Of a DNA stretch of 40,037 nucleotides, positions 22,654 through 23,861 are shown in pieces. Made by a program: the position numbers and the translations under genes. The stretch covers positions 1 to 40,037 of the forward strand of contig JAJYTC010000022.1 of the NCBI GenBank assembly GCA_021793275.1. The letters are read 5' to 3'. Each line of letters begins with the position of its first letter. Positions within the stretch are counted from its first letter, which is position 1. The notes under the pieces were generated by a model, which had not been told where the DNA came from, did not search any database, and worked only from the letters and a program-made list of their open reading frames with translations. The stretch is from Deltaproteobacteria bacterium (GTDB taxonomy: Bacteria; Desulfobacterota; Syntrophobacteria; Syntrophobacterales; Syntrophobacteraceae).

Positions 22654-22785
22654 TCAATCCGAGCGCAATGGGAAAAAAATGAGCTGCCAAATTCCATCGG
22701 AACATCGTAAGCACACATTACCCACGCAAGTTACGCTGTCGTTCTGGAAAACCTCACCATTTAATTCGCAACCAGTCTCTTCCAT
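22654..22785 (-). CDS. Small cysteine-rich protein (43 aa)
   Basis: A 43-residue ORF with a strong ribosome site (GGGGGAGG, 7 bp before ATG 22785). Cysteines are C6, C20, C25 and C28. The pattern CELNG...C-x4-C-x2-C-SDGIW resembles the small VWC-like or metal-binding Cys-rich proteins I associate with Desulfobacterota. No signal peptide; the tail after W33 is hydrophobic. A similarly built ORF starts divergently at 22948, which supports both being real. Function unknown; redox or metal binding is only a guess. It is too short for standard ORF cut-offs. Confidence 0.6.
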   Translation of the reverse strand: MEETGCELNGEVFQNDSVTCVGNVCLRCSDGIWQLIFFPLRSD

Positions 22786-22947
22786 GTTGATTCCTCCCCC
22801 GGACATTTAGCCCACCAAGCTTCATTGCACCCCGAGCCGTGGTTCCACGAATAAAATAAGCATGAACACCCATAAGCGTCCAAGTTTCAAACGCTGTGGA
22901 GAGTGATTACTGAATAAGAAGCCGGATTATCGTAAAAAGGAGAAATT

Positions 22948-23016
22948 ATGGAAACTGTGGGAAAAAACGAGTGTTCGCTCGATGGCAGGAAATACCCGCA
23001 GGGACATGCGCTTTGA
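22948..23016 (+). CDS. Small Cys-rich paralogue, stopped by in-frame TGA
   Basis: ATG 22948 has a good ribosome site (AAGGAG, 6 bp upstream). It gives a 22-residue peptide starting METVGKNEC and continuing SLDGRKYPQGHAL to a TGA at 23014. It aligns with the divergent 43-residue protein (both ME-T..., C-x-L-[ND]-G, aromatic, Q). The TGA falls where the partner has C20. A second in-frame TGA five codons later (23029-23031) falls where the partner has C25. The downstream residues do not resemble the partner's CSDGIW end. It is either a decayed paralogue or, less likely, a selenocysteine-containing protein. Confidence 0.4.
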   Translation: METVGKNECSLDGRKYPQGHAL

Positions 23017-23093
23017 AATAACGAGGGGTGATCAGTTACGAATTCAGCCATCCACCTTCTGAGATATTTTTCCTGTCGGACACCTCAACTCCC

Positions 23094-23306
23094 TCAGTTG
23101 CTTTCCGTGCCACCAAAGATCTCGGGATTATACTCGTTCAGGGTACAGTACACCCTGATAGAGCTGATTTTACCATCTTTCATTTTGTAGAACCCGGCGA
23201 GACCGCTCGTTCTTATGGTTTCTCCCTTCTTTAGAGCGCAAACATAGTGGTGCATTGGCGCCTTAGGCTGAGGAAAATCAGGAAGAAAAAGGTAGCTTAA
23301 TCGCAT
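23094..23306 (-). pseudogene. Possible C-terminal fragment of an NTF2/SnoaL-like protein
   Basis: 70-residue open frame. SGLAGFYKMKDGKISSIRVY resembles the last strands of NTF2-like (SnoaL, ketosteroid-isomerase fold) proteins, where a DGKI turn is common. Full proteins have 110-140 residues, so the N-terminal half is missing. An in-frame TAG lies two codons before its ATG. No clear ribosome site. Family assignment is tentative. Confidence 0.35.
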
Positions 23307-23378: not shown

Positions 23379-23582
23379 ATGCCCTTCGTAAACATCAAAA
23401 TGGGCAAAGACGGGGCTACTCCCGATCAAAAAGCCCAGCTTGTCAAAGGAGTGACGCAGCTTTTGGTTGACGTCCTGGGAAAGAATCCGCAGACTGTTAT
23501 GGTCCTCATCGAGGAGATTGAAACCGACAACTGGGGCCTTGGAGGAGAAACCGTTACCGCCAGAAGAAGGAAGGCTCCTTGA
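23379..23582 (+). CDS. 4-oxalocrotonate tautomerase family protein
   Basis: 67 residues. I use ATG 23379 because AAGGAGG stands 7 bp upstream and the product then starts Met-Pro, leaving the catalytic Pro1 after Met removal. The sequence PFVNIKMGKDGATPDQK, then LVKGVTQLLVDVLGKNP and VMVLIEEIETDNWGLGG, is a standard 4-OT fold. The family makes keto-enol tautomerases and dehalogenases that act as hexamers, with Pro1 as general base. The specific substrate is unknown and no aromatic-degradation genes are near. It stands alone. Confidence 0.88.
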   Translation: MPFVNIKMGKDGATPDQKAQLVKGVTQLLVDVLGKNPQTVMVLIEEIETDNWGLGGETVTARRRKAP

Positions 23583-23861
23583 GGAGAAGGAAGTAAAAGA
23601 GACCACTTGACTTTTAGACTTCGGACTGTACCGGAATTTAAAAATGAGCCGGGTCGAAGAGATTGTCCTGAATGAGACCGGCTTCGATAGCTGAAAAATG
23701 ACCTCCAATCCCTGGCTGCCTCCCGGAACCGTCTACTCAAAGTAATCCGGCCCTGCGGTCTCATCGCCAAGACCGAAAAATCGAACCTCCTCAAAATAGA
23801 TGTATTTACTACCAGAATACAGTATTCCCCTTATCGCTTTTTTGTCGAAATTATTGGAAAA

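Follow-up and report, generated by a model that had tools for sequence, protein, structure and literature searches.

The window analyzed here, a stretch of 40,037 nucleotides from a Syntrophobacteraceae genome assembly, holds a divergent pair of very small open reading frames (ORFs), in which we probably see an intact cysteine form of a protein on the minus strand and a decayed member of a selenocysteine (Sec) branch of the same family on the plus strand, the intact relatives of this branch in other genomes being predicted users of Sec. As judged from sequence comparison, both ORFs belong to one undescribed, lineage-restricted, multi-copy family of tiny cysteine-rich proteins of the Desulfobacterota.

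The pair was picked out in an earlier sequence-only reading, which described matching cysteine and TGA positions in the two ORFs, and the description was confirmed by translation. The minus-strand ORF (MEETGCELNGEVFQNDSVTCVGNVCLRCSDGIWQLIFFPLRSD) has cysteines at positions 6, 20, 25 and 28, and the plus-strand ORF has C9 followed by in-frame TGA at codons 23 and 28 (METVGKNECSLDGRKYPQGHALU(23)NNEGU(28)SVTNSAIHLL...). The offsets between these positions are 14 and 5 in both ORFs, with 13 and 4 residues between, and the ribosome sites claimed for both are borne out by Shine-Dalgarno-like motifs (Table 1). The likeness of the two N-terminal halves is also beyond chance: the family profile described below matches the minus ORF with an E-value of 3.2e-13 and codons 1-21 of the plus ORF with 1.5e-5, values that are inflated because both window sequences were built into the profile. 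Independently of the profile, the plus-strand peptide with TGA read as cysteine matches the relatives L011, L013 and L017 with per-genome E-values of 5.1e-4, 0.0070 and 0.034, respectively. The nearest homologue of the minus ORF is L041, with 66% identity across 35 aa, and this ORF looks intact as a cysteine paralogue within the family of the plus ORF.

Table 1. Features of the divergent ORF pair, in window coordinates.
Feature	Position	Strand	Basis
Most likely relic of the Sec branch, ATG to second in-frame TGA, 28 codons	22948..23031	+	translation, profile match, weak tree
In-frame TGA 23, at C2 position; TGA there also in three relatives	23014..23016	+	sequence
In-frame TGA 28, at C3 position; read as part of the decayed frame	23029..23031	+	sequence
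Shine-Dalgarno-like AAGGAG of plus ORF	22937..22942	+	sequence
Apparently intact four-cysteine paralogue, 43 aa	22654..22785	-	translation, profile, homologue L041
Shine-Dalgarno-like GGGAGG of minus ORF	22793..22798	-	sequence

The family first surfaced when 147 related genomes were searched with each window peptide, which returned many similar short ORFs; a profile was then built from 17 such ORFs, with those of the window among them. At E<=0.1 this profile matches 19 of the 26 genomes of the window's GTDB family, with 0 to 18 matches per genome (18 in G003, 16 in G008 and 2 in the window's genome). Matched loci were rescored in all frames with TGA read through, and membership was set at a domain E<=0.02 and a span of >26 profile positions, weaker and partial matches being dropped. 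This gave 80 distinct members, all from loci of one GTDB family, with a length of 39-70 aa when the read-through of the window's plus-strand copy is left out, a Shine-Dalgarno-like 4-mer upstream in 76/80, and the pattern C1-x13-C2-x4-C3-x2-C4-x-D-G-x-W, with variants. A second profile matched 4 of 395 genomes in a phylum-wide sample, all of the window's GTDB family, and the family therefore looks lineage-restricted. Scanning the window peptides and 16 members against Pfam and NCBIfam returned no model for the family. The C-terminal tails end in -GP in 12/80 members and in -VL in 10/80, suggesting subfamilies with conserved tails. The members L099, L102, L104 and L109 are clustered close to each other in G003 and G008. 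One match to the family pattern in genome contigs, L149 (Minwuiaceae), was rejected as chance, its translation being without the family N-terminus, and a scan of viral contigs gave 0 matches.

An in-frame TGA is present in five of the 80 members, and no member has an internal TAA or TAG in the matched span. In four of the five, namely three relatives and the window's plus-strand copy, the TGA is at C2. The three relatives are intact: L142/L146 from Desulfarculales bacterium UBA702, L143/L148 from UBA696, and L144/L147 from Desulfobacteraceae bacterium bin.361, which is of a different genus from UBA702. In each of them the TGA is codon 23, the same position as the first TGA of the window copy, in a column occupied by cysteine in homologues, and C3, C4 and DGxW continue in frame after it; homologues with cysteine at the TGA positions, on which the sequence-only reading had made its case depend, are thus present. 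The codons CTT TGA at 22-23 are common to all four members with TGA at C2. Comparison of L142 with L143, which come from sister species, over codons 24-47 (n=24) gives 16 same, 7 synonymous and 1 non-synonymous; past the final stop, 4 of 12 codons are unchanged and 8 differ, with 0 synonymous changes. Coding constraint appears to persist after the UGA in all three relatives, and this intact branch with TGA at C2 is a new predicted selenoprotein family. The set is small, consisting of three intact sequences from metagenome assemblies; two of them are 94% identical in protein, and so represent about two independent lineages together with the third. As the contigs are assemblies, they may contain sequencing error.

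The bSECIS model, as given in the available text of a 2026 review, has a stem of 4-16 bp, a loop of 3-9 nt with G in the first two loop positions, a distance of 16-37 nt after the UGA and an MFE <= -7.5 (PMC13188914). All three intact TGA members fit this model, the stem being 8-9 bp, the loop GGU and the distance from the TGA 17 nt. Folded with flanks, the hairpins have an MFE of -8.0, -8.0 and -12.7; the stem-only energies are -6.7, -6.7 and -8.6, so that two of the three miss the -7.5 cut-off. Strict contiguous stems pass -7.5 at 25/376 background stop-TGAs and in 3/76 non-TGA members, and a bulge-tolerant scan was dropped as a test, since 73.6% of 250 background stop-TGAs pass it. Folding energy alone is not discriminating, and we place the weight of the Sec case on conservation. 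Between the genera of L142 and L144, the hairpin codons 27-33 (CAA TGC AAG GTT TGC ATT GAC) are 7/7 identical, compared to 6/15 of the same-residue codons elsewhere (Fisher 0.010); among the first 22 codons, by comparison, the two agree in only 5.

We propose that SelB and tRNA-Sec decode UGA23 in the intact relatives as selenocysteine, and that insertion would be directed by this hairpin, with its loop 17 nt after the UGA and a stem formed by the two following cysteine codons (CAATGCAA-GGT-TTGCATTG). With a stem made from cysteine codons, the same bases would both encode CxxC and form the SECIS. Actual Sec insertion is what we infer here, while the family, the TGA position, the conservation of frame and hairpin, and the machinery are taken from the sequences. 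Among four-cysteine members with C-x4-C, 26/55 have, 16-17 nt after C2, a small hairpin with a G loop and >=4 bp, formed mostly by the TGC codons of CxxC; since these hairpins lie at SECIS distance, the SECIS may have had its origin in the CxxC codons.

An alternative is that all of the TGA members, the relatives included, are plain nonsense-mutated pseudogenes, their cysteine codons having mutated easily to TGA. TGC or TGT reaches TGA in one step, genomes range from 0 to 18 in their number of copies, and the fifth TGA member, L145 (G016:C45, about 199548-199652), has its TGA in a column of Gly type. Neither an adjacent in-frame ATG nor a strong hairpin was found for L145; it is probably a decayed copy, and its TGA at a non-cysteine column implies that simple decay via TGA occurs in the family. 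Applied to the three relatives, however, this explanation has to account for a TGA that two genera share in position while C3, C4 and DGxW are preserved past it, for 7 synonymous against 1 non-synonymous change after the TGA, for hairpin codons unchanged between genera, and for a membership collected without internal TAA or TAG. We therefore regard it as unlikely, and retain the interpretation of the relatives as predicted selenoproteins.

The machinery for Sec insertion was looked up in the window's genome, as the sequence-only reading had proposed for selA, selB and selC. It contains selA, a tRNA-Sec with anticodon TCA, and selD and fdhA genes, each with an in-frame TGA. SelB is present as pieces only, on several contigs, some at contig ends, with none over the cut-off; we take the split SelB to be the result of assembly breakage. 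The lack of selB and selC that would have spoken against a Sec reading is thus not what the genome presents, with tRNA-Sec and SelB pieces both found. SelB-like matches are on contigs C166, C235, C226 and C90, and there may be more than one copy. In G003, G008 and G011 both selB and tRNA-Sec family matches are over the cut-off.

The sequence-only reading had offered two descriptions of the plus-strand ORF, a selenocysteine micro-protein or a decaying paralogue; the first appears to hold for the relatives and the second for the window copy itself. Its remark that the C-SDG-W end is missing after the second TGA was correct, as the frame past TGA28 is without C4 and DGxW, the C-terminal third of the family sequence, and the suspicion of a simply truncated copy is largely supported by this loss after codon 28. 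The reported lack of a clear SECIS was likewise verified, with no strict hairpin after TGA23 or TGA28. Most likely the window copy has decayed, and we read it as a relic of the Sec branch; with its hairpin, C3, C4 and end lost, translation most likely stops at codon 23. When 11 genomes of the genus were searched at the DNA level, no other convincing plus-ORF copy came up, the matches in that stretch being of 21-25 bases only, with E above 0.2.

We have also considered that the window copy is an active selenoprotein, with UGA23 and perhaps UGA28 read as Sec through an unconventional SECIS to give a product of at least 27 residues. Each TGA coincides exactly with a cysteine column, the two columns behaving as a pair, the ribosome site is good, the same genome has Sec machinery as well as FdhA and SelD genes with TGA, and some genuine bacterial SECIS elements depart from the consensus, according to the available text of PMC13188914. 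Against this, neither TGA has a strict hairpin, the energies with bulges allowed are -8.2 for TGA23 and -0.7 for TGA28 against a background median of -10.15, and the family C-terminus is absent past codon 28, which together make an active copy improbable. The more elaborate version, a double-Sec microprotein in which both window UGAs are read to give U-x4-U in place of the C2-C3 pair, with an undescribed SECIS class and a new C-terminus, is more improbable still, and we consider it a very slim chance.

The origin of TGA23 in the window copy bears on whether decay took place within the Sec branch. In a weak tree the window copy groups with the Sec trio at a support of 0.15, which becomes 0.77 with L125 added, in which C2 and C3 are replaced by Arg and Val. 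N-terminal scoring against the window copy puts L128 and L125 above the Sec members, whose ranks are 3rd, 4th and 8th of 79. With these support values and ranks, it is likely, and no more than likely, that TGA23 was inherited from a Sec ancestor. The competing possibility, that a decaying cysteine copy acquired TGA23 on its own, apart from the Sec branch, draws on L128, a copy without C2 and C3, being what the N-terminus of the window copy matches best, and on the support of 0.15; the grouping of the window copy with L125 and the Sec members at 0.77 and the CTT TGA at codons 22-23, shared by all four members with TGA at C2, run counter to it, and we hold an independent origin to be possible but doubtful. 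Descent of the window copy from the Sec branch remains our preferred reading.

Around the pair, an Rfam search of the window returned tRNA only. In the DNA search of the 11 genomes, the stretch following the tRNA (query positions 1-45) and a tautomerase region match, and the minus ORF matches weakly in G007. The tautomerase gene (PF01361, E 5.9e-22; window 23380-23583) adjoins the ORF pair, and its region has 80% identical DNA elsewhere in the same genome, at G000:C78:2409-2729. Between them, a minus-strand ORF of 70 aa at 23094-23306 presumably resembles the end of a SnoaL-like protein; Pfam gave no match for it, and it is perhaps another gene fragment beside the relic.

Consideration of the cysteines across the family, with the window copy left out, gives some insight into what the protein may do. 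C1 and C4 are kept in 79/79 members; 64/79 have both C2 and C3 and 12/79 have neither, kinship between members being ignored, and single losses are rare (C2 only in 2/79, C3 only in 1/79). The two-cysteine form, with C1 and C4 kept, comprises L113, L117, L121, L125, L127, L128, L130-L133, L135 and L136. As C2 and C3 are mostly kept or lost jointly, C2 (or U) and C3 would act as a unit. A four-cysteine zinc site is disfavoured, with 12/79 members lacking C2 and C3 yet retaining C1 and C4. An AlphaFold model from four sequences is a five-strand mini-fold with a mean pLDDT of 78, and we expect the protein to adopt a small all-beta fold. No signal peptide was seen by eye. We propose a small cytosolic beta-protein in which U/C-x4-C is a putative selenol/thiol redox or metal(loid)-binding pair; in the cysteine pairing and redox role that we envisage, C1 with C4 would be the constant part.

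The top Foldseek matches of the model are consistent with each other, namely VWF, MUC2, CCN3 and the collagen 2A VWC, with a TMq of about 0.6-0.7 and rmsd of about 1-2 to VWC, von Willebrand E and fibronectin type I-like folds; the best E is 0.026, with none <0.001, for a model from four sequences. These are extracellular animal domains, unlike the bacterial family described here. A PDB sequence search gave three non-significant matches only, mucin-2 and factor H among them, and DUF1496 (PF07383) matched 2/16 members weakly, with a best E of 0.05 that is far below significance.

The available text of the 2026 review lists 119 families or subfamilies of bacterial selenoproteins with Sec/Cys pairs (PMC13188914). 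The relatives resemble these in having an in-frame UGA at a position that is cysteine in homologues, a hairpin immediately after it whose small apical loop contains GG, and Sec machinery in the genome, and differ from them in the U-x4-C spacing within a protein of ~47 aa. No family in Table 1 of the review, as available to us, matches by name, and a literature search found no paper on such a family. Small hypothetical Sec families without conserved domains, DG, DW and DF, are described from Desulfobacterota in the available part of PMC12013277. These (OS_HP3/DW, NF041197; DG, NF049953; DF, NF049942) contain Sec, as predicted for the intact relatives, and 0/16 members match any of the three in an NCBIfam scan, assuming the presence of each accession in the library. 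None of the NCBIfam Sec models of the 2026 review was over its curated cut-off for the window peptides or the 16 members.

Taken together, these data would extend the catalogue of 119 by one candidate selenoprotein family, with proteins about 47 residues long. In proteins so short, a UGA would cause gene finders to miss them. The cysteine members with a CxxC hairpin are already half-way to a SECIS, which suggests a route by which Sec could be acquired. Furthermore, the family evolves by birth and death, and the coexistence of Cys, Sec, pair-lost and broken copies in it would make it well suited to watching the gain and loss of Sec.
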